Assembly: GCF_000004825.1 (NCBI RefSeq)
Contig: NW_008805066.1
Location: 1,116,001-1,180,000 of the forward strand
Length of the DNA: 64,000 nucleotides
Direction: 5' to 3'
From: Heterostelium album PN500
Taxonomy: Eukaryota; Evosea; Eumycetozoa; Acytosteliales; Acytosteliaceae
Shown: positions 4,872-63,660 of the stretch, one piece after another
How positions within the stretch are numbered: position 1 is the first letter of the stretch
Layout of the letters: each line of letters begins with the position of its first letter
Translations under genes and position numbers: made by a program
Notes under the pieces: generated by a model
Database searches by the model: none
What the model was told of the DNA's origin: nothing
Seen by the model: only the letters and a program-made list of their open reading frames with translations

Positions 4872-6603
4872 ATGACAATGAAGTGTTTAAATCATCAGAA
4901 ATCACACAAATTCATTTGTTATCAATGTAATTGTTTGATGTGTTCAAAATGTATAATCAACCATATCAAAGATCATCCTGATCATGCCCATAAAATAGAA
5001 GATATCGATGAAATCAAACATTCATTGAGTACATTAAAATTAGATGATATTATTGACACCACCACAACGAATAAATGATAGTACTGGTAGAAATATACAT
5101 AATTTTCATTCACAAATCAACAATTAACTTAAATCTTTTTGGGAATCATTAAGATCATCGACATCCAGATATCAAAGATTATCAACAACAGAGAATGATA
5201 TCAAACAACACTTTGAACAATTACATCAATATCTAATCATTGAAGAACATAAACTACAAAGAGATATTATCAATGATAAACATACAATCACAAATCAAAT
5301 CGATAATAATATCAAGAATTTAAAATATTTAATAAATATTATCAATATATTTAATAAATTAAATAATAATTGTTGTAATAATAATAGTAATCAATCAATT
5401 ATATCAGATACAACAACATTATATTCAACAACAACAATAATGGAATCAATAACAACAAGTTCATCATTACAATCTTTCATCAATCATCATAATCAAACAT
5501 TGTTCAATGAATATAATATTTATTTCAATATTGATGAACTTCTCAAACAACATTCCAACGATTCATCATCATTATTATTAGATATCATTCATAAATACAA
5601 CAATCGATTCAATGAATCAACAACAAACACAGACAATAATAACTTAAGATTATCATCATATAAATTATCAATCAAACAACCTGATTTCAATCAATTGAAT
5701 TCAATCATTGAACAATCAATCAAACTTGATAACATTGAATCAACTGAATCACCAATAAATACAACAACAACAAAAAACAACAATGATAATAAACAATCTT
5801 ATATTTTCACAACACACAAATCAAATGGAGCAACACTGATCAACACATCAAACAACAATTCAATTGAAGAATTACAGTTTGATTATCAATTTAATTTTAC
5901 ATACTCCTCGATTGTTTCAATTGGTGAATATATCTATATATTCGGTGGACATACCAATGAAAACAAATGGATTAAAATATCAATGAAATCGAAATCAGTT
6001 GAACATATTGGTGATATGAGAGGAATCAAAGGTGATTCTAATATATCAGTTTGTTATGATGGTCAAGATCATATCTATTTAGTTAATGGTGTTAATATAA
6101 AGAATAGAATTGATCGATTCAACATCAAGACAATGAAATTTGAATCATATTATCAATTACCTGATGGATATGATCGTCAAGTATCATCAATGATCTTCAA
6201 AGGTTCATTATATTCATTATCATGGGATCAAAATAAGCTTTTTCAATTCGATTTAACAAATAAAAAGATAACCGATTATCAAATTGACATTATACCATAC
6301 TCAGGATGTCATGATAACAATGGAAATTTCTTCATATTTGATAGAAAAAACAAACGATTCATCAAATACAATGTTGAAACCAAACAAACAATCAATCTCA
6401 ATGCTGATCATCTCGCAAACGCACAGTATCCATTTGTAAAGTATCATCGAGAATCACCAACATCAAGTTATATCTATTCATTTGGTAATAATAATGATGA
6501 TAATTTCAAATATTCAATTGAATCCAATCAATGTGAACCATTCTTTAGAGATATTAATGATCTAAATAGATCATGGTGTGCATCCACATCAATTTCATTA
6601 TAA
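4872..6603 (+). pseudogene. B-box/beta-propeller family gene, broken copy
   Basis: The start (MTMKCLNHQKSHKFICYQCN) is the same B-box zinc finger as in the intact copy at 21316-19544. The first frame (4872-5078) ends at TTTTNK; homology continues in another frame from about 5080 (one-base shift near 5070), meets one further in-frame TAA near 5125 (where the paralogue has NNKLKS), and then stays open to the TAA at 6603. The 3' open frame from 5440 alone would give 387 residues with all propeller repeats. It may be a recent pseudogene, since the rest is well kept. A sequencing error could explain one break, less easily both. Confidence 0.75.
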
Positions 6604-19543: not shown

Positions 19544-21316
19544 TTAAAATGAAATTGATGTAGATGCACTACACGCTCTATTTTTATTAATAATATCTCT
19601 AAAGAATGGTTCACATTGATTGGATTCAATGGAATATTTAAAATTACAACCATTGGAAGAACCAAATGAATAGATATAACTTGATGTTGGTGATTCTCGA
19701 TGATACATCACATATGTATACTGTTCATATGTGATAGGAATAACATTGAGATTGATTGTTTGATTGGCTTCAACATTGTATTTGATGAATCGTTTGTTTT
19801 TCATATCCAATATGAAGAAATTTCCATTGTTATCGTGACATCCTGACCATGGTTTAATGTCAATTTGATGATCTGTTATCGTTTTATTTGTTAAATCGAA
19901 TTGAAATATCAAATTTGGACTGAATGCTACTGAATATAATGAACCTTTGAAGATCATTGATGATACTTGCATACCATATCCATAAGGTAATTGATGATAT
20001 GATTCAAATTTCATTGTCTTGATGTTGAATCGATCAATTCTACGTATATCATAACCATTCACTAAATAGATGTGATCTTGACCATCATAACAAACTGATA
20101 TATAAATATCACCTCTGATTCCTTTGATATCACCAATATGTTCAATTGATTTCGATTTCATTGATATTTTAATCCATTTGTTTTCATTTCCAGTTCCACC
20201 GAATATATAGATATATTCATCAATTGAAACAATCGATGGAGCTGTAGAATCAAATTGATAATCAAACTTTAATTCTTCAATTGAATTGTTGTTTGATGTG
20301 TTGATAAGTGTTGCTCCCATTTCATGGTGAGTTGTGAAAATATAAGATTGTTTATTATCATTGTTGTTTGTTGTTGTATCTATTGATTCAGTTGGTTCAA
20401 TTTTATCAAGTTTGATTGATTGTTTAATGATTGAATTCAATTGATTGAAGTCAGGTTGTTTGATTGATAATTTATATGATGATAATGTTAAGTTATTATT
20501 GTCTGTGTTTGTTGTTGATTCATTGAATTGATTGTTGTATTTATGAATGATATCTAATAATAATGATGTAGATGAGTTGGAGTGTTGTTTGGTAAGTTCA
20601 TCAATATTGAAATTATTATTTTTATCAAAATAAAACAATGTTTGATTATTATGATTGATGAATGATTGTAATGATGAACTTGTTGTTATTGATTCCATTA
20701 TTGTTGTTGTTGAATAGAATGTTGTTGTATCTGTTATAATTGATGTATCCTCATTACTAATATTATTATTATCATTATTATCACTACTATTATTATTATT
20801 ATTATTTAATTTATTTAATATATTGATAGTATTTATTAAATATTTCAAATTCTTAACATTATTATCGATTTGATTTATGATTGTATGTTTATCATTGAAA
20901 ATATCTTTTTGTAGTTTATGTTCTTCAGTGGTTAGATATTGATGTAATTGTTCAAAGTGTTGTTTGATTTCATTCTCTGTTGTTGATAATCTTTGATATC
21001 TGGATGTCGATGATCTTAATGATTCCCAAAGAGATTTAAGTTTATTGTTGATTTGTGATTTGAAATTATTACTATTTTTATTACTATTACTATTATTCGA
21101 ACAATGATTATTGGTTGTTGTTGTGGTGGTGTCAATAATATCATCTAATTTTAATGTACTCAATGAATGTTTGATTTCATCGATATCTTCAATTTGATTA
21201 AAATGATCAGGTTGATCTTTGCTATGATTGAAAATACATTTTGAACACATCAAATGATTACATTGATAACAAATGAATTTGTGTGATTTCTGATGATTTA
21301 AACATTTAATTGTCAT
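19544..21316 (-). CDS. B-box zinc finger/coiled-coil/beta-propeller protein (intact copy)
   Basis: Single exon, 590 residues. Residues 5-38 form a B-box type zinc site (Cys5, His8, Cys16, Cys19, Cys24, Cys27, His31, His38 in CLNHQKSHKFICYQCNHLMC and following). About 75-170 are helical with heptad-like spacing (LWESLRSSTSRYQRLSTTEN, EEHKLQKDIF), broken by Asn runs. From about 330 to the end there are kelch-like blades (IVSIDEYIYIFGG, ISVCYDGQDHIYLVNG, SSMIFKGSLYSV, GCHDNNGNFFILD). The architecture recalls TRIM proteins without a RING, so ubiquitin-ligase activity is not expected; a scaffold role is likely but unproven. Three other copies lie in the first 25 kb; this is the only one seen intact. 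Confidence 0.85.
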   Translation of the reverse strand: MTIKCLNHQKSHKFICYQCNHLMCSKCIFNHSKDQPDHFNQIEDIDEIKHSLSTLKLDDIIDTTTTTTNNHCSNNSNSNKNSNNFKSQINNKLKSLWESLRSSTSRYQRLSTTENEIKQHFEQLHQYLTTEEHKLQKDIFNDKHTIINQIDNNVKNLKYLINTINILNKLNNNNNNSSDNNDNNNISNEDTSIITDTTTFYSTTTIMESITTSSSLQSFINHNNQTLFYFDKNNNFNIDELTKQHSNSSTSLLLDIIHKYNNQFNESTTNTDNNNLTLSSYKLSIKQPDFNQLNSIIKQSIKLDKIEPTESIDTTTNNNDNKQSYIFTTHHEMGATLINTSNNNSIEELKFDYQFDSTAPSIVSIDEYIYIFGGTGNENKWIKISMKSKSIEHIGDIKGIRGDIYISVCYDGQDHIYLVNGYDIRRIDRFNIKTMKFESYHQLPYGYGMQVSSMIFKGSLYSVAFSPNLIFQFDLTNKTITDHQIDIKPWSGCHDNNGNFFILDMKNKRFIKYNVEANQTINLNVIPITYEQYTYVMYHRESPTSSYIYSFGSSNGCNFKYSIESNQCEPFFRDIINKNRACSASTSISF

Positions 21317-22880: not shown

Positions 22881-24626
22881 TTAAAATGAAATTGATGTAG
22901 ATGCACAACAAGCTCTATCTTTATTAACAATATCTCTCAGGAATGGTACACATTGATTGGATTCAATTGAATATCTGAAATTACATTGATTAAAAGTTCC
23001 AAATGAATAGATATAACTAGATGTTGGTGATTCTCGATGATACATCACAAATGTAGACCCATTTTTGTGAGGATTTATATCGAGATTGATAGTTTGCTTG
23101 GTTTCAACATTGTATTTGATGAATCTATGGTTTTTTCTATCCAATATGAAGAAATTTCCATTGTTATCATGACATCCTGATAATGGTTTAATGTCAATTC
23201 GATGATCTGTTATCGTTTTATTTGTTAAATCGAATTGAAATATCAAATTTTGGTGGTATGATACTGAATATAATGAACCTTTGAAGATCATTGATGATAC
23301 TTGCATATCATATCGATCAGGTAATTGATGATATGACTCAAATTTCATTGTTTTGATGTTGAATCGATCAATTCTATTCTTTGTATTGGCACCATTCACC
23401 AAATAGATATGATCTTGACCATCATAACAAACTGACACATAGCAATCACCTTTGATTCCTTCGATATCACCAATATGTTCAATCGATTTCGATTTGGCTG
23501 ATATTTGAATCCATTTGTTTTCATTTCCAGAACCACCGAATATATAGATATATTCACCAATTGAAACAATCGATGGGGCTGTATTTACAAATTGATAATC
23601 AAACTGTAATTCTTCAATTGAATAGTTGTTTGATGTGTTGATAAGTGTTACTCCATTTGGTTTGTTTGTTGTGAAAATATAAGATTGTTTATTATCATTG
23701 TTACTTGTTTGTTGTTGTTGTAATATTATCAAGTTTGATTGATTGTTCAATGATTGAATTCAATTGATCGAAATCAGGTTGTTTGATTGATAATTTATAT
23801 GATGATAATGTTAAGTTATTATTGTCTGTGTTTGTTGTTGATTCATTGAATTGATTGTTGTATTTATGAATGATATCTAATAATAATGATGATGAATCTG
23901 AGGAATGTTGTTTGAGAAGTGAATCAATATTAAATACACCAAAATGTTCATTGAACAATGTTTGATTATGATGATTGATGAATGATTGTAATCGAATTCG
24001 TAACTTGTTGTTATTGATTCCATTATTGTTGTTGTTGAATATAATGTTTTTGTATCTTCAATTGTTGGTTGTTCATCAGAACTACTATTAGTATCATTAT
24101 TAATATCGTTATTACTATTTAATTTATTAAATATATTGATAATATTAACTAAATATTTCAAATTCATAACATTATTATCGATTTGATCTGTGATTGTATG
24201 TTTATAATTGACAATATCTCTTTGTAGTTTATGTTCTTCAATGATTAGATATTGATGTAATTGTTCAAAGTGTTGTTTGATTTCATTCTCTGTTGTTGAC
24301 AATGCTTGATAGAGAGTTGTAGATGATCTTAATGATTCCCATAGATATTTAAGTTTATTATTGATTTGTGAAATGTGATTACTGTTATTACTATTATTTT
24401 TAGTACCATCATTATTATTGGTTGTTGTTGTTGTTGGGGTGTCAATAATATCATCTAATTTTAATGTACTCAATGAATGTTTGATATCATCGATATGTTC
24501 CCATTGATCGAAATGATCAGGATGATCTTTGCTATGAATACTGACACATTTTGAACACATCAAACAATTACATTGATAACAAATGAATTTGTGTGATCTT
24601 TGATGATTTAAACATTTAATTGTCAT
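22881..24626 (-). pseudogene. B-box/beta-propeller family gene, broken copy
   Basis: Homologous along its whole length to the intact copy at 21316-19544 and in the same orientation. ATG at 24626 (MTIKCLNHQRSHKFICYQCN). Two frame changes are visible: near 24000, where five bases are gained in the paralogue's TTSSSLQSF segment, and near 23720, where the Thr/Gln-rich linker shifts frame. The three frames are otherwise open and similar, ending CCASTSISF. The 289-residue propeller frame (23750-22881) could still be made on its own. The last shared residues are as close to the other copies as those copies are to one another, so inactivation is recent. Confidence 0.8.
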
Positions 24627-24923
24627 TATTAACTTTCTAAAATAAGTAAAAATACTAATGGATCTTCGATTTATCAAGATCAAAAAAAATAAAAAACAAA
24701 AAAATTTTTAATTTTTATTATTTTTGTTGTCTTATTTCTAAAAAACATCTGCTACTATTACCCTACTTTAATAATTTAAAAAAACAAAATAAAAAAGTTG
24801 TTGGTAGAACATAAAAACATAGTTTTTCTTACTTGAGATTCAAAAAAAATAAAAAATTATTAAGATTTTATTATATACAAAGAATAAATGAAGTTAATTT
24901 AGATGTTTTTTTTTTAAGGACTG

Positions 24924-30959: not shown

Positions 30960-33275
30960 ATGATAGGAATTAAAAATAATATAAATTTATTTGTAATATT
31001 AGTAGTATTAATAATTTTCATTGTTAATTGTGGTGATAATTATTTGGTTGATGCGGCGGTCAATACCAAAACAAAGATAGCTGTCATCACTGGAGGTAGT
31101 TTCGATGATCTCGGTTTCAATGCCGTTATCAACGAAGGAAGAGTAAAGGCACAGAGAGCAACCGAGATATTGCATTTCGATCTCTTTTCGAATGTTCATA
31201 TCGACACGCTGAACGACACCATCCAGTGGTGTGTCGACGAAGGATACACCGGTATCATTTCGCTGGCGGTGGAGGTAGCCACTCAAGTCCGACTGAACGC
31301 TGCCAAATTCCCACTGGTAAAGTTCTTGGCGTTCGGTAGTCTGGCGACCACTCCAAATCTCAGTTGGGCCACCTACAACATTGGAATTATGCAGTACGTC
31401 GTCGGTTATTTCGCCGGGCTGATGACCAAGACCGGAAAGATTGGATACATTGCACCGGGTGAACCACTCGTCAAGAATTACAATGCCAATGCACTGTTTG
31501 TCGGTGCGAGACGATCCAATGAAACCGCTCAGGTTCTCATTTATAATACTGGCGATTGGATTATCCCGGATGTCTCTGTTGGTGCTACCGATCAGCTCAT
31601 TGCCAAAGACATTGATTTCCTCAGTAACAACCAAGACGATCAATCGGCCAACATCCAAATGATCAAAAGAGGTTATTTCGGTTTGGGAACCAACGGATTT
31701 CCACAGAACAGAATCTACGGTGAGCAAATCGCAATGGGTGTCTGTCATAATTGGACTCAGGTTTTCATCGATTTCGCAAATATAGTTATCACCAATTCAT
31801 CGAAATCATTTAAATTCTATGGAGAGTTTTATAATGGTTTTCTATATCTTGATAAATTTGGTTTTTATGTAAGTTATTACTTAACTTTATAATAATATAG
31901 TTATATTAATATTAATTATCTGATATTTATTTAGGTTCCACAAGTTGTACAACAAAAAGTTCAGGATGAAATTAAAAATTTAAGTTCAGTACCAAGAGCT
32001 CAACATCCATACTTTTGTAATAAATACAATAGAGAACTCTACAATTTGAACAATTCAATTTTCGGAGCAGAGTTACCAGCCAACAATTGTCTGACAAACA
32101 GTCAGTTTTTCAGGCTGAACTCTGATTACGATGGTATGCACTGGCAAGGTTTCTATAGTGTTCCTCTTACCAGAGTCGATGTAAAGCATTCGATTCTCTA
32201 TGGATTTACTATCACTTCGGGTGTGCTGATTGCTCTTTCTCTGGTGTTGCTTGCTATGATTGGATGGTTTAGAAATGCTCATTCCATTAGATCGGCAAGT
32301 CCTTTCTTCTCTGCTACAATCATTATCGGTGGAATTATGACTTATATTGGTGCCATTATTTATGCGTTGCCGCCATCCAACGGTTCCTGCGTTGCAAAGT
32401 TCTGGATGTTGGCGATTGGCTATGCGCTTATGGTTGGATCGCTGGTGGTTAAGAACATTAGAATCTGGATGATTTTCGACAACTCTGAGTTGAGAGTAGT
32501 CAAGGTAACCAACTACCAATTGATGCCGTGGGTAGCCGGTATCGTAGCGATTATGGTTGTGCTGCTGGCGTTGATGACCGCGCCGGCTGTTGGCGACATC
32601 AAGATGGTGCAAGTCGACTGGCGATCAGAGGATGCCAACGATCTCAGTAAGTATGAATACGCCAACGTTTGTATCATGGGTAGAACAGCGTCGATCATCC
32701 TCTACGTGCTCTTGGGAGTGTTTGGAGTGCTGATGGCAACCGGTGTATTTGTATCGTGGAAAATCAGAACTGTCGACATTGAGGAGTTCAACGAGAGTAA
32801 ACCCATTGCCAACACACTGTATGCCGGACTGTTTTCGATTTTCGTAATCATCAGTTTGATGATTTCACCGCAGTCGGTCAACAATGAAACCACCATTATT
32901 TGCTCGGCCGTACTGTTTATCACAACCATTTCACTTGGTATTCTATTTTTACCGAAATTCATTAGAATCTATCTCTATGGCGCCAACACATCGAACGTCT
33001 TCAATAGAAGTGGTAAGCAGACGAGAAGTACAGCCACCGGTGGTAAAACCGTCAGTGATGGAAATCTCACACAATTCAACGATGAAGAGGGTGAAAGTCG
33101 TGCGGCACCCGCCACCTCGCATGACACCTCGAGTGGTTCGATAGCAACTCTCGAAAGAACAGACAGTAGGTCAATGGTAAACAGAAGCAACAGTCAAATA
33201 ATAACAAAAGATCAGTTAACCATTAGTGTTTCAAACGAGAAACCAAATGACGATCTTGAAATGGAACAACCTTAA
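30960..33275 (+). CDS. GABA-B-like (class C) G-protein-coupled receptor with periplasmic-binding-type ectodomain (Grl family)
   Basis: Two exons, 30960-31868 and 31935-33275, 749 residues. Residues 1-32 are a signal peptide (LFVILVVLIIFIVNC). About 36-340 resemble the bacterial basic-membrane-protein/PBP1 fold: KIAVITGGSFDDLGFN, YTGIISLAVEVATQVR, TGKIGYIAPGEPLVKNYNA. Seven membrane segments span about 389-650, with class C marks such as ASPFFSATIIIGG, the WMIFDN loop and FLPKFIRIYLYG at the end of TM7. The cytoplasmic tail (about 100 residues) is Ser/Thr-rich. Family knowledge: dictyostelid Grl receptors sense GABA, glutamate and differentiation factors, and the BMP-type ectodomain is typical of them. 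Surface receptor; ligand unknown. Confidence 0.9.
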
Positions 33276-50586: not shown

Positions 50587-51668
50587 TTAGTTTTTTTCGA
50601 ACAAATTAATATATTTATCGACTTATTGAATATATTTATTTATTTTTTTTCGAATTTTTCCATTACAACTTCTAATTGAAGTTTGATCTTTGATTTGTTC
50701 TTCTTGAGGTAGAATGCACCAATAACAATCAATCCTAATAATACAGAACCAACAACACAAACAACTGTGATGATGATCCATGTTTTACTCTTTTCTTCAC
50801 ATTTATCTTTGACTGCAACCAACAATGAGAAATCTGGATCGATAAAACATCTCTGACATTGACTCAGATTGATTCCAATCGAAATATCATTTGGGTTGGT
50901 GTTATTAACAACTTCAACAAATGAATATGTTGGTTGTCCATCGGAAAGTGAAACATCATAAAATTTACCATAAAATGATATTCCATTCTTGACAATCTTC
51001 AAATAATTGATTGAATTATCGATTTGATTGTTTCCAATTGAATTCTTTTCGAATGAACAATCATTTTGTTCATCGAATTGTGTCGAAAATACAACTCTTA
51101 AAGTGTTGAGGAGTGATTCATAAGTCCATCCATCAATCGATATCGAAAGTTTGATTGAGTTTGGTGGAAGTACATATGATAATCCTGCAAATTCAACATT
51201 CATTGGTTCCGATGAATATTGAATTGTAGCTTCGATGAATTCCGATGATGTATGATTCAATTGATATCTTGTTACTGTTTTTGTTGAATTCTTTGTTGTG
51301 TTGAAATTCCAATTATTTGTTGGTATTGATTTGATAACATTTCTTGATGAATCTAATTCTTCAATCGATATCATATTGAATGAAAATTCTTCACCATTGA
51401 CTATGAAAGTTGGTGATGGTTTTGTTGTATTTTCACCAATTACACCTCCATCAAATATTTCTATGAAATAAAATAAAAAATAGTCAAAAAAATAGTCAAC
51501 AAAAATAAATAAAAAAAAAGAATAAATAAAGAATGATAATTACTATTTTCACAATAATATCCATTGAATCCAGAATAACATTGACAATATCCAGCTGCTA
51601 AACAATCTCCATTTCCATTGCACAATGGTTTTGTATTTCCACAATCTATGATAATCTGTGCTGGATCT
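50541..51668. repeat. Duplicated/converted tract, copy 1
   Basis: Matches 54788-55915 at a constant offset of 4,247 bases with very few differences, including one whole intron and the last 46 bases of the deubiquitinase coding region. Only about 60 bases (50660-50715, the receptor's cytoplasmic tail codons) are clearly diverged. Confidence 0.92.
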
Positions 51669-54787: not shown

Positions 54788-55915
54788 CAAAGATGCAACA
54801 TCGAAACTCATTAAAGATGGCTATTATATATAGTCAGTTTTTTTCGAACAAATTAATATATTTATCGACTTATTGAATATATTTATTTATTTTTTTTCGA
54901 ATTTTTCAAGCACAATCTCAAATTTTAGTTTGAGATTAGCTCTATTCTTTCTGAGGTAGAATGCACCAATAACAATCAATCCTAATAATACAGAACCAAC
55001 AACACAAACAACTGTGATGATGATCCATGTTTTACTCTTTTCTTCACATTTATCTTTGACTGCAACCAACAATGAGAAATCTGGATCGATAAAACATCTC
55101 TGACATTGACTCAGATTGATTCCAATCGAAATATCATTTGGGTTGGTGTTATTAACAACTTCAACAAATGAATATGTTGGTTGTCCATCGGAAAGTGAAA
55201 CATCATAAAATTTACCATAAAATGATATTCCATTCTTGACAATCTTCAAATAATTGATTGAATTATCGATTTGATTGTTTCCAATTGAATTCTTTTCGAA
55301 TGAACAATCATTTTGTTCATCGAATTGTGTCGAAAATACAACTCTTAAAGTGTTGAGGAGTGATTCATAAGTCCATCCATCAATCGATATCGAAAGTTTG
55401 ATTGAGTTTGGTGGAAGTACATATGATAATCCTGCAAATTCAACATTCATTGGTTCCGATGAATATTGAATTGTAGCTTCGATGAATTCCGATGATGTAT
55501 GATTCAATTGATATCTTGTTACTGTTTTTGTTGAATTCTTTGTTGTGTTAAAATTCCAATTGTTTGTTGGTATTGATTTGATAACATTTCTTGATGAATC
55601 TAATTCTTCAATCGATATCATATTGAATGAAAATTCTTCACCATTGGCTTTGAAAGTTGGTGATGGTTTTGTTGTATTTTCACCAATTACACCTCCATCA
55701 AATATTTCTATGAAATAAAATAAAAAATAGTCAAAAAAATAGTCAACAAAAATAAATAAAAAAAAAGAATAAATAAAGAATGATAATTACTATTTTCACA
55801 ATAATATCCATTGAATCCAGAATAACATTGACAATATCCAGCTGCTAAACAATCTCCATTTCCATTGCACAATGGTTTTGTATTTCCACAATCTATGATA
55901 ATCTGTGCTGGATCT
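54788..55915. repeat. Duplicated/converted tract, copy 2
   Basis: See copy 1 at 50541-51668. Its first 50 or so bases are a stray copy of the last codons of the deubiquitinase gene (KDATSKLIKDGYY-type reading), which have no role here. The right edge of similarity falls at ggatct in the receptor genes' EGF exon. Confidence 0.92.
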
Positions 55916-58747: not shown

Positions 58748-59188
58748 ATTTATTTATTTGAAAAATATTTGCAAAAATTTGTAAACTTTAATGCTTAAAC
58801 AATATTTTTTAGGATCAATCACCTTCTCCAAACAGATAAATAAAATCAGAAAAAAAAAATATCCCAAAAAAAAAATCAAAGTTCGTTGAAAAAACAAGAT
58901 CTTTATCCTATCAAATTGGAACCACCATTTTCTTATTATAGATATTTGGAAATTAATCTCTTTGTTTTTTCAACGAACTTTGATTTTTTTTGTTTTACTT
59001 AAAATATTGGGCTATCCATCTTTTAAATAAGATCAATAAAATTGTACAGTAAAAGTAAAAAGATTCAGTTATTTGTGTGAGATCAATTAAAAGAATAATA
59101 GAAAGATGGAATAACTGAAACTCACCAAATAAAAATAGATTACAACGAATCTATAGACGTTGTTATTGTTGATGTTTTAATAAAATGA
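58748..59188. other. Spacer with a long hairpin
   Basis: Promoter side of receptor 2 and 3' side of the PH gene. Contains the inverted repeat at 58868-58991. Confidence 0.55.
58868..58991. repeat. Perfect 30-bp inverted repeat with 64-base loop
   Basis: Arms at 58868-58897 and 58962-58991 are exact reverse complements (core caaagttcgttgaaaaaacaa). The stem has A/T-rich ends and a mixed core. It could be a MITE-like element end, a hairpin RNA source or a 3' processing signal. It lies about 120 bases upstream of the start of receptor 2. No target-site duplication is obvious. Confidence 0.85.
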
Positions 59189-62100
59189 TTAAGATTTTAT
59201 AATTAGTTTATTTGGATGAACCATTTTAGATTTGATGATTCTTTGTATTGCAGGTTTGATGATTAGATCAACCGGTTTAAGTAGAGTGGTAGTTGTGAAT
59301 TTGAAATCAATCTTTGGTTCCTCTTGGAATGACAGCCAATGGGGTTTGGCCGATCCCTGATGGAAACCCAGTATTACAATGCCGTGTATCGATGGATCAC
59401 TTATTGTCGCTTCACCAGAGAGTCCTTTATACTCGATTTGTATACGAATCTTTAGATCCTTTGGTGTAAGTTCAACGGCAAAGTGTGCCTGGAATCCATA
59501 GAGAATAGCTTGGAGCTGAATGATTGATTGGCGGTTCGTAAAGAGATCGGGGAACGAATCTGGCACTGAGATCTCTTTGATGGTGATCTTTGTGCTTTTC
59601 AGTGTTGTGTTTTGTACAGAGTGTAACAACGAATTCAGCGTGTACATCAGTGAGGTGATTGGCGAGTTGGATGTGAGCGGACCTGAACTGCTGGATTCTG
59701 GTCGGACGGCAACACGCTTCTTCTTGGTGTGTGGCTCGGTCAACTGGTAGATGAGCATGGTTGGTTCATCGAGGTTGTTGTCGACTACCATTCCTCCGAG
59801 CTTGCTTATGAGTTCGCTTATCTTGGCGTTGTTGGACATGAGCAATTGCAGGAAGTGTTGTGCTTCCTGTGAGAAATAGGTGGGTGGAGTGGCGCGAGCA
59901 ATCTTGTGAAGCGGTTGAATACACTGTTTCTTTAGAATGATTTCATTGTATCGCTTGTCATCGAGTTCATAGATACGCTTGAGAATGTAGATAATACAAT
60001 GCTTAATCAAGTCACCATCATCGTTTGTCTGTGAGAACTGCTGATCCAACACTTTAAAGTAATACTCTAGGATGTCTTTCATCTTCTTATAGTTCTCTTC
60101 TACACTGCCAAACATAACAGGTATCTTTGTGAGTAGAGTTATTAGCTTTACAATAACCAATAAAGTATATTTCAATACTGCAGGTGGTAATGATTGTATT
60201 GAGAACTTTAATAATACTTCAATTGATATCTTTGTACAGAATTTATCTTTATATAATGTATGTTAATATTAATATTCTAATGATTGTAATAGTGTTATAG
60301 GTATGTATACATACTAAAATTACAAAGGTAATAGATAGTCTTCATTGTATATAAATGTAAAAGTGGATCATTTCTATTCTTAAGATGTGATTGTAAAAGG
60401 TTTGCCATTCGATCCAATCTGAATGATTCACCCATCAATATCTGTTCTGTAATACACGATTGATTTCTATTATGATATCTTAGCGTCTGTACAATAATAA
60501 TATGAAATGAAACTAATAGCTGTTCACTTTCACCGATATTCAAAAGTAAATCTAATATTCTACCATCATAATCTATAAAAAAACCATAGTTAGTAGTGTA
60601 ATATAAACTACTGGTTCGATAATATGATAATCGAACAACTAATAAAATACATACTATATTTAAATCTATTTGATAATTTCTTTAATAGAGATTCTATATA
60701 TTCCCAATTATTGACGTCTGGATTCAAATCATGTGGTAAGAGTGATCGTTCAAACCATGTATCTGTTAACTTGAATCTGAATAAATGATTTCCACCAACC
60801 CATGCACATTCGTTATTATACATTGATATACAATTCATATCTTCACCAAGATCTATTACTTCAAATACACCTTGACCTGACTATTTTGATAATGTAAATG
60901 CAAATCAATCAATTTAAAGTGTTAATAGATAACTAATATCTTACTAAAAAAAACAATAATATGATAATCATTACATTTGGTTCATATACAGATATATGAT
61001 GTCTATTAACTGCCCATACATAACCATTGAATATATTGAATGATGTAATTGGATGTGTACAATCAAAACTTCTTTTCTTTTTCAATGTCTAGACATTCAA
61101 TTACAAAAATCAAATCGGTCAGTTAATAAGTAAGAGGTGTTTGAGTAATATTATTTTACATACATTTAAACTCCATAGAGAAACAACGTTTGGCATTTGT
61201 GGAGCAAAGAAACCTGTTACTGTATTGTCTGGTAATGAACATATCCACAGAGTATTACCAATGACAGACATGCCGGATATCGATTGATAACCAACCTCTA
61301 GAATCTGGCAGATATCACCATCCCATGGACTCCAAACAACAATCTCTGAGTATGTAGTTGCAATCAATATTCTATCGTCATACTTTATAATTTTGTAAAA
61401 CTTTCTTATATCTCTGACTTTCTTCTTTCCTTGTTGTTGTTGTTGTTGATTGACTTGTTGTGATGCATTCTTCTCTGTTTCAATCATTTGGATATAAGAA
61501 TTTAATGGTATATCTTTAGCTGTTTGTGTCTTTATATATATAGCAATTAAACAATTTAGTAAACAATAGTCTATAACACTTATAATGTTTAATTTGATGA
61601 TGATTGATTCTACTTACATTTATATCTAACAATGCAATAGATGTAAAGTTCTCACTGTATCCACAATAAAGTAGTAGTGAATCGTTGATTTCAATCATGC
61701 TGTAGATTGGTACACGTGAATTGTGTGTGAATATCAGGGTGAAGTCGTCTTCGTGCCATGCACATATAGTAGTGTCGGTCGATGCACTGTAGATAGCATT
61801 CTGTGACGGAATGTAAACGAGCGATGTGATAGCGTGTTGATGTTTCTTCCATTGTGAACCCTTTTTTAGCTTGTCAGATGCAGCAGACCATGTAACGATG
61901 TTACCGTTGCTATCACCTGTCCATATCTTCTTTGGCGAGACTGCAACCATCGCAGTGATATATCCAGAACTGAAATTCTTTGCATAATCGATAATTGATG
62001 CACCACACAGACTCATCTTATTATTATTACCGGACTGATCGACAGTACGTGGATTTGAATTGACTGATGTTGTCATTTGGCTATTACTATTATCTGGTGA

Positions 62101-62934
62101 CATATTATTTGGTTGTTGTTGTTGTGTTTTGGCAGGAGCAACAGCATTCACTACTATTTGTGTAATGGTTTGTTTTAATGAATTAATCGGTCCTTGTTGT
62201 TGTTGAGGTGGAGGTTGTTCACCATTATCATTTATCATAACAAATCCAAAATCATTATTGTTGTTGTTATTATTGTTATTGTTTAAATAATTAGTAGTTG
62301 TCGTTGTTGTAGATGTTGTAACTGGCATTGACTTTGACATTGCTTTTGTAGTGATTGAGGTCGAGGTTGTCGATGTTGAGCTAACTACAGGGTTGGATTG
62401 ATTCAACAAAGTTGGAATTGGTGTAGATAATACAGTTGTTTGTCTCTTGTTATTAATCGATTTTGATGAAGAAACTTGGTCACTACTGCTATTGTTGTTG
62501 TTGTTGTTTACAAAGAAACTACCATTTTTATTATTATTGTTGTTTGATGTTATTTTCGATGATTGAACAGAGGTAGAAGTTGTTATAGTAATAAAGCTAG
62601 TAAGATTTAGTGTCCATTGGTTAATGTCTGATTCAGAGTTTGAAGAGAGGTAGTATGTACGATCTTTTGTGTGAATGTCTAGTGTCCAGAGATGTGATGA
62701 TGTAGCGGTTGGCTGATGTTGTTGAATCGCCTGTAAGTCCGACATGGCGATTTTACCGTACAACTTTGCCTCTGGTTTCTCCGATTTTAAATAGCTCAAA
62801 CTCTGATTGTCAAGCACAAAGAATCGTTTCTTCCAAGCCTGTGATCTACCTGGTAGTTTTGACTTGCCATCCTTCTTGAATAGATATCCACTCTGAATAA
62901 CAGTGGTTGTCTTTGAAGATAGAGCAGAAGACAT
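59189..62934 (-). CDS. PH domain + WD40-like propeller + SMP-like lipid-transfer domain protein
   Basis: Six exons in phase: 62934-61618, 61529-61164, 61088-60975, 60880-60655, 60572-60315, 60246-59189; 1,112 residues. PH domain at about 13-125 (SGYLFKKDGKSKLPGRSQAW, WKKRFFVLDNQSLSYLKSE, ending DINQWTLNLTSFI). A low-complexity Asn/Thr/Ser/Gln linker follows. From about 310 to 650 there are WD40-like blades: ITAMVAVSPKKIWTGDSNGN, ITSLVYIPSQNAIYSASTDT, DDRILIATTYSEIVVWSPWD, ISGMSVIGNTLWICSLPDN. Then a helical region to about 950. The last 155 residues fit an SMP (TULIP-type) domain: KITIKEISVPDSFPDL, LKIRIQIEYKGLSGEATI, HWLSFQEEPKIDFKFT and a closing KPVDLIIKPAIQRIIKSKMV then HPNK. Family knowledge: SMP domains carry lipids at membrane contact sites, and PH plus SMP occurs in TEX2-type proteins. 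The propeller between them is the unusual part. Confidence 0.7.
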
Positions 62935-63660
62935 TTTTTTTTTATTGTTTTGTGTACTCTATCCCTTTTTTTCTGTCTCTAATCTCTAACTATCTACTTT
63001 TAACTTTAATTATTGTAAAAAACAAAAAAAAGTGGATAAAAAATTTGTGACAGATAGATTTAATTTAAAAAGGGTGATGACTTTTCATTGAGATTTTTTT
63101 ACCCCTCACCCGAAAGTGTGTTTTTTTTGAATAGATTTAATAAAATGCATACTATATTTAAATCTATTTGATAATTTCTTTAATAGAGATTCTATATTCC
63201 CAATTATTGACGTCTGGATTCAACTATGTGGTAAGAGTGATCGTTAAAACCATGTATCTGCTAACTTGAACCTATCCTATATAAATAATTTCCACACATT
63301 CGTTATTATACATCGATACACAATTCATATCCTCACCAATATCAATTACTTCAAATAGATCTTGACCTGACTATTAATATCAATCAAGAAGTATTCTATT
63401 TTCTAATGTGTCTTTTAATTCATTTATTGTTGTTTTCTTAATTTTTAAAACTAACATATTTCTTCTTTTTAGAATGTCTTTTAGACCTTTAAATTTGAAA
63501 GAAATTATATTGATATTTTTCTAAATTTTGGATTTTTTTGGACTATTCTTCAGTCACTATAACATAGAATACATTTTATATAATAAATATTATATTTACA
63601 TCTTTATTAAGTTTATTGATTTATGGTTATTTGTTTTGTCTCGAGAAAAAACTATATATT
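62935..63660. other. Spacer upstream of the PH gene, with a relic exon
   Basis: A+T-rich promoter region of the leftward PH gene, carrying the relic at 63139-63376. 63380-63660 is plain A+T-rich sequence; no other feature. Confidence 0.5.
63139..63376 (-). pseudogene. Stray decayed copy of exon 4 of the PH-propeller-SMP gene
   Basis: Closely similar to 60645-60885, including a few bases of intron on both sides, so it was copied as DNA and not from mRNA. It differs by several point changes and small deletions that break the frame (for example gtctggattcaactatgtgg in place of gtctggattcaaatcatgtgg). It lies 200 bases upstream of the gene's own ATG and in the same orientation. Confidence 0.85.

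Follow-up and report, generated by a model that had tools for sequence, protein, structure and literature searches.

The window analysed here is a 64-kb stretch (64,000 nucleotides) of Heterostelium album DNA with a GC content of 30.7%, in which poly-N and poly-Q runs are present. Its minus strand carries a gene for a protein of 1,112 amino acids (aa), whose features are listed in Table 1. The coding region is assembled from six exons (27 to 40% GC) across five AT-rich GT-AG introns of 68 to 94 nt (18 to 27% GC). This reproduces the single spliced frame of 1,112 residues reported in the first-pass annotation, an observation that also holds as a whole, since the frame, the PH domain, the propeller and the C-terminal marks were all found again. 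The splice junctions are not unique. The five defined gaps allow 8,400 open GT-AG combinations that encode more than 1,000 aa, and among the six alternative gene models that were printed the differences are confined to the surroundings of the junctions. The intron 3 donor at 60974 is a manual choice, absent from all six models, which use 60944. Neighbouring domains have exons in common: exon 1 encodes the PH domain and the first propeller blades, exon 4 the last blade (assigned by eye) and the start of the helices, and exon 6 the helices and the C-terminal domain. This sharing of exons argues for one gene, and the locus is a real and very probably single gene. A search of the exon 6 protein against viral and prokaryotic contigs found no relative, as expected for a eukaryotic protein.

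Table 1. Features of the candidate PH-propeller-SMP gene and of its surroundings in the 64-kb window
Feature	Position in the window	Strand	Basis
Complete coding region of 1,112 aa in six exons	59189..62934	(-)	Open spliced frame; intron/exon GC
Exons 1 to 6	62934-61618, 61529-61164, 61088-60975, 60880-60655, 60572-60315, 60246-59189	(-)	Joined via five GT-AG introns
PH domain, residues 12-114	62593..62901	(-)	PF00169; phmmer; motif scan
Linker, residues 115-313, mostly low-complexity N/S/T/Q	61996..62592	(-)	Composition
Propeller of about seven WD40-like blades, residues 314-655, exons 1-4, approximate boundaries	60713..61995	(-)	Pfam, PDB, eye
Residues 656-930, apparently helical, ARM/HEAT-like as judged by eye	59738..60712	(-)	Weak model; no family
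Probable SMP domain, residues 945-1112 (963-1110 aligned)	59192..59695	(-)	hhalign with controls; PDB Mdm12
Decayed duplicate of exon 4 with splice edges, outside the protein	63138..63375	(-)	87% identity to 60640-60885
Inverted repeat	58868-58991		Near-perfect arms
Two frames with ComC supersandwich domain	50640-51374, 54887-55621	(-)	PF22933
Frame with Bmp-type and class C seven-transmembrane domains	30960-33275		PF02608, PF00003
Three frames alike by eye	5440-6603, 19544-21316, 22881-24683		Eye; Kelch_6 in one

Several other features were noted in the window. Upstream of the gene and in the same orientation is a copy of exon 4 that keeps its splice edges and has stops in all three frames read; it is a decayed duplication at the DNA level. 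About 200 to 320 nt past the stop codon of the gene, a near-perfect inverted repeat has arms of about 29 bases with about 66 bases between them, and its predicted fold has an energy of -42.2 kcal/mol (z -8.5). A 20-base piece of its arm has no other copy in the window at up to three mismatches, and the repeat has no match in Rfam at gathering scores. It may represent a small foldback element or the precursor of a hairpin RNA. The two ComC supersandwich frames are nearly identical, differ near their C-termini and apparently arose by recent duplication. A further frame carries a Bmp-type domain and, after it, a class C seven-transmembrane domain, and it looks like a Grl-type receptor. The families PF02608, PF00003 and PF22933 are all linked to dictyostelids, and their presence beside the poly-N and poly-Q runs is in keeping with DNA from this group. 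Three more frames look like a local family expansion by eye, and one of them has a Kelch_6 match and cysteines that resemble a B-box, also by eye.

From the PH domain to the helical region

The N-terminal PH domain of the first-pass annotation is certain. It matches PF00169 with an E value of 8.6e-15 and 55.6 bits in the Pfam scan, above the curated cut-off of 25.1. Its nearest solved chains by phmmer include the PH domains of Myosin X, PLEKHA6 and TAPP1 (E 6.8e-6 to 2.1e-5). A motif scan found a basic K-x(n)-K-x-R-x-F-V motif from residue 20. In PH domains the basic K-x(n)-K-x-R motif is often paired with 3-phosphoinositide binding, and by this motif the domain may be a 3-phosphoinositide binder. 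Only 11 residues lie ahead of the PH domain, and about 830 residues separate it from the C-terminal domain. The linker that follows it contains 40 N, 32 S, 29 T, 17 Q and 12 P among its 199 residues.

The propeller was searched as an isolated sequence. Its best Pfam propeller matches have E values of 2.6e-9 and 2.2e-7, with every match below its curated cut-off. The matches lie mostly over residues 322 to 447 (approximately), and two weaker ones extend further, CDC20 (1.7e-5) to about residue 488 and THOC3 (5.7e-5) to about residue 577. PDB matches include designed WD40 propellers at an E value of 5.6e-11, Notchless at 7.7e-7 and Prp19 at 2.5e-6. Seven blades are a count by eye, and the significance comes mainly from the first blades. 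The WD40-like propeller that had been proposed is thus confirmed by Pfam and PDB for its first blades, while its last blades were placed by eye only.

About 275 residues between the propeller and the C-terminal domain had gone unmentioned in the first-pass annotation. PH, propeller and SMP-like domains do occur in the order that it gave, but this large, apparently helical segment intervenes before the last of them. The segment is probably helical and, as judged by eye, probably ARM/HEAT-like. Helices in its exon 6 part appear in a low-confidence AlphaFold model, the sole structural hint. A 227-residue piece of the region gave zero Pfam matches up to E 10, and the PDB returned one chance match (E 0.28). 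The only Pfam match in exon 6, to Integrator INT1_R3, has an E value of 0.13, which is chance level. A RasGAP-like reading of the region was also considered, by eye.

The most hydrophobic 19-residue stretch of the protein, residues 789 to 807, has a mean hydropathy of 2.03 and passes the usual cut-off. It includes two lysines and is located between the PH and SMP domains, so that a single span there would put the two domains on opposite sides of a membrane. We do not regard it as a convincing anchor, and the protein is presumably soluble. According to PMC5507252, nearly all SMP proteins carry a membrane anchor, with Mdm12 and Mdm34 as exceptions.

Comparison of the C-terminus with SMP domains

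Both strings that had been quoted as SMP marks are present in exon 6. One reading to be weighed is that the SMP resemblance is a chance match of one short motif on a C-terminus that is not a TULIP domain, in which case the protein would be an ordinary PH-propeller-helical signalling scaffold. The single-sequence searches agree with it. The Pfam SMP models PF10296, PF17047 and PF25669 gave no match to the C-terminal 150 residues up to E 10, and the domain alone found nothing in the PDB better than two cruzipain chains (E 0.93 and 0.97). In a yardstick comparison with hand-entered SMP sequences, Pfam also missed those of PDZD8 and Mdm34 up to E 1 and matched TEX2 at E 0.0012 only; the Pfam miss on our domain therefore does not discriminate. 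An NCBIfam match to Drt4 on the C-terminus is at chance level (E 0.032). Single-sequence AlphaFold models have a pLDDT of 35.6 for exon 6 and 38.6 for the SMP domain alone, too low to serve as fold evidence. Foldseek with the latter model returned 137 matches at E values of up to 10. None of them is at E 0.001 or better, and the 50 that were listed include no SMP or TULIP protein; with a model of such low confidence, this speaks neither for nor against the fold.

Profile comparison gave a different picture. The profile was built from eight of nine hand-entered SMP sequences; yeast Mdm34 (no Pfam match) was dropped, and PDZD8 was kept despite its missing Pfam match because it was the lead. The C-terminal domain (query) aligned with this profile in hhalign with a score of 41.85 and a probability of 86.7% over 134 colinear columns. 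None of 100 shuffled queries reached this score (mean 12.7, sd 2.3, maximum 20.3), and the reversed query scored 13.4. The best of 46 decoys scored 15.3 (0/46 at the query score); 38 of these were stop-free 182-residue stretches read from the window in any of its six frames, a set that includes some that are not real proteins, and eight came from this protein. When each of the eight SMPs was left out in turn and compared with the rest, the scores ranged from 44 to 140, with Mdm12 at 44.1 and PDZD8 at 50.4. The query itself scored 29.3 to 35.4 against seven of the eight profiles with one SMP removed and 42.6 against the other one.

Smaller profiles were evaluated with the maximum of 100 shuffles and of 46 decoys as controls. 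With PDZD8 removed, the query scored 29.3 with a probability of 29% (shuffle maximum 16.6, decoy maximum 15.9). Against the six Pfam-verified SMPs it scored 25.1 with a probability of 9% (23.6 and 17.4), and against Mdm12 plus Mmm1 21.9 with a probability of 3% (20.2 for both controls). The E-Syt group is the failing one of the four: the query scored 20.4 with a probability of 2%, above the decoy maximum of 15.6, and at least one shuffle scored higher (21.7), a point for the chance reading. Against a chance match, in turn, stand the shuffles and decoys of the eight-member profile, all far lower than the query, and separate, individually weak matching pieces with Mdm12 and the E-Syts.

PDZD8 is the closest single SMP among the eight compared. 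The PDZD8 SMP sequence, on which the strongest comparison rests, was entered by hand after the query had been seen; its own leave-one-out score speaks for the entered sequence, short of verification. Smith-Waterman alignment of the query with this PDZD8 sequence gave a z score of 6.1, and 0/1,000 shuffles reached the score. By the same Smith-Waterman measure, PDZD8 itself has z scores of 6.8, 5.1, 4.4, 3.7, 1.6 and 1.1 against Mdm12, Mmm1, E-Syt1, TEX2, SYT1 and tricalbin, respectively. In the separate pairwise comparison of the query with the other seven SMPs, z ranged from 0.6 (Mmm1) to 3.1 (Mdm12), with TEX2 at 0.9. Blast of the query against PDZD8 found 37.5% identity over 48 columns, a short span that counts in favour of a chance match.

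The two sequences were then combined. A two-row profile of query and PDZD8 scored above PDZD8 alone for all seven other SMPs, a gain that speaks against a chance match, and for six of them it also exceeded the highest score reached with 60 shuffled partners. The exception is E-Syt1 (11.8 vs 12.4 for the best shuffled partner), and tricalbin was a narrow pass (3.0 vs 2.7). In the PDB, PDZD8 alone found Mdm12 (5gyk) with 12.2 bits and an E value of 0.96, behind two ribosomal chains. The two-row profile placed Mdm12 first (5gyd, 20.4 bits, E 0.0024; 5gyk, E 0.013). Four of its five PDB matches were Mdm12, and the solved E-Syt2 was absent from them. By these profile comparisons the C-terminal domain is a probable SMP domain, and we regard a chance match of one short motif as quite improbable. 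Of the SMP/TULIP C-terminus that had been claimed, the SMP relationship stands by profile, with support that partly leans on the hand-entered PDZD8.

A TULIP domain of another branch was considered as well. In fungi and amoebae, according to PMC5507252, BPI-like proteins that are intracellular have 500 to 1200 aa, a single TULIP domain near the C-terminus and a helical region before it, and the protein described here fits in length, position of the domain and preceding helical region. The comparison covered a hand-entered human BPI, to neither half of which the C-terminus shows similarity (z about -0.1 in each case), and the signal found instead is that of SMP. A BPI-type TULIP was rejected on this lack of likeness to human BPI, and membership of the BPI-like branch is a highly improbable reading.

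About 13 residues that follow the EY(K/N)G strand of PDZD8 (EYNG motif) are missing from the query. Taken with the lack of an evident, convincing membrane anchor, this gap could indicate an SMP domain in which lipid transfer is lost or changed. The domain would then act as a dimerisation or tethering module, and the protein would be a phosphoinositide-recruited scaffold. On the other hand, the motifs HW-LSF-EEPKIDF and IIKSK--HPN at the last strand and helix are kept relative to the hand-entered PDZD8, and divergent domains often have shortened loops. We consider such a scaffold unlikely, and lipid transfer by the SMP domain is plausible.

A candidate phosphoinositide-recruited lipid carrier

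The order of PH domain, propeller, helices and SMP domain is unusual. On balance we favour a soluble, phosphoinositide-recruited protein of the form PH-linker-propeller-helical-SMP, with an SMP domain closest to the one in PDZD8, that would shuttle lipid between two membranes. The PH domain would most likely dock on a phosphoinositide-rich membrane (plasma membrane, macropinosome or endosome). The propeller and the helical region would bind a partner on the opposite membrane, which is most likely that of the ER. The putative SMP tube, probably dimeric, would shuttle phospholipid between both membranes.

SMP proteins are described in PMC5507252 as four major types, almost all of them membrane-anchored and all at contact sites. 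If our favoured reading is true, a soluble PH-propeller-helix-SMP protein extends this set. A bolder version, which we offer only tentatively, is that the protein represents a further major SMP type: a soluble carrier recruited through its PH domain by phosphoinositide signalling and held by a propeller/helical scaffold instead of an anchor, so that lipid transfer could be switched on at macropinosomes or, in a crawling amoeba, at the leading edge. Under either reading, laboratory slime moulds would offer a direct way to ask whether phosphoinositide signals recruit lipid transfer. The case also suggests that Pfam overlooks divergent SMP domains, and protists may possess more of them than is now estimated. 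Dictyostelid gene databases may already contain an annotated orthologue.

Relation to known SMP proteins

Titles and abstract openings in the literature searched, a partial coverage of the field, describe no PH-propeller-SMP protein. Among the amoebozoan systems that are described, Dictyostelium discoideum has ERMES, and the single SMP protein of Archamoebae is Nvj2 (PMC10648710).

PDZD8 works at ER contact sites, and the similarity of the query to the hand-entered PDZD8 is of the same order as that of PDZD8 to the ERMES subunits Mdm12 and Mmm1. The SMP domain of PDZD-8 transports phosphoinositides in vitro (PMC8523718). The domain arrangements differ: PDZD-8 combines an anchor at its N-terminus with PDZ and C1 domains (PMC8523718) and a split C2 domain (PMC5507252), whereas here the PH domain, propeller and helices are placed ahead of the SMP domain. 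Neither a PDZ nor a C1 domain was found after the SMP domain in the Pfam scan, and the frame ends at the SMP domain.

The TEX2/Nvj2 domain order combines PH and SMP with an N-terminal anchor, a pattern from which our protein departs with its very short stretch ahead of the PH domain. PH and SMP occur in one protein in TEX-2 (PMC8523718), as here. TEX-2 has the N-terminal anchor (PMC8523718), whereas none is evident in our protein, in which the propeller and the helical region separate PH from SMP. The SMP domain is also not close to that of the hand-entered TEX2, as the pairwise score given above indicates.

Mdm12 is a small ERMES subunit that has none of the PH domain, propeller or helical region of our protein. 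It is an SMP protein without a membrane anchor (PMC5507252), as ours presumably is, and a strand motif ending in EYKG is common to both.
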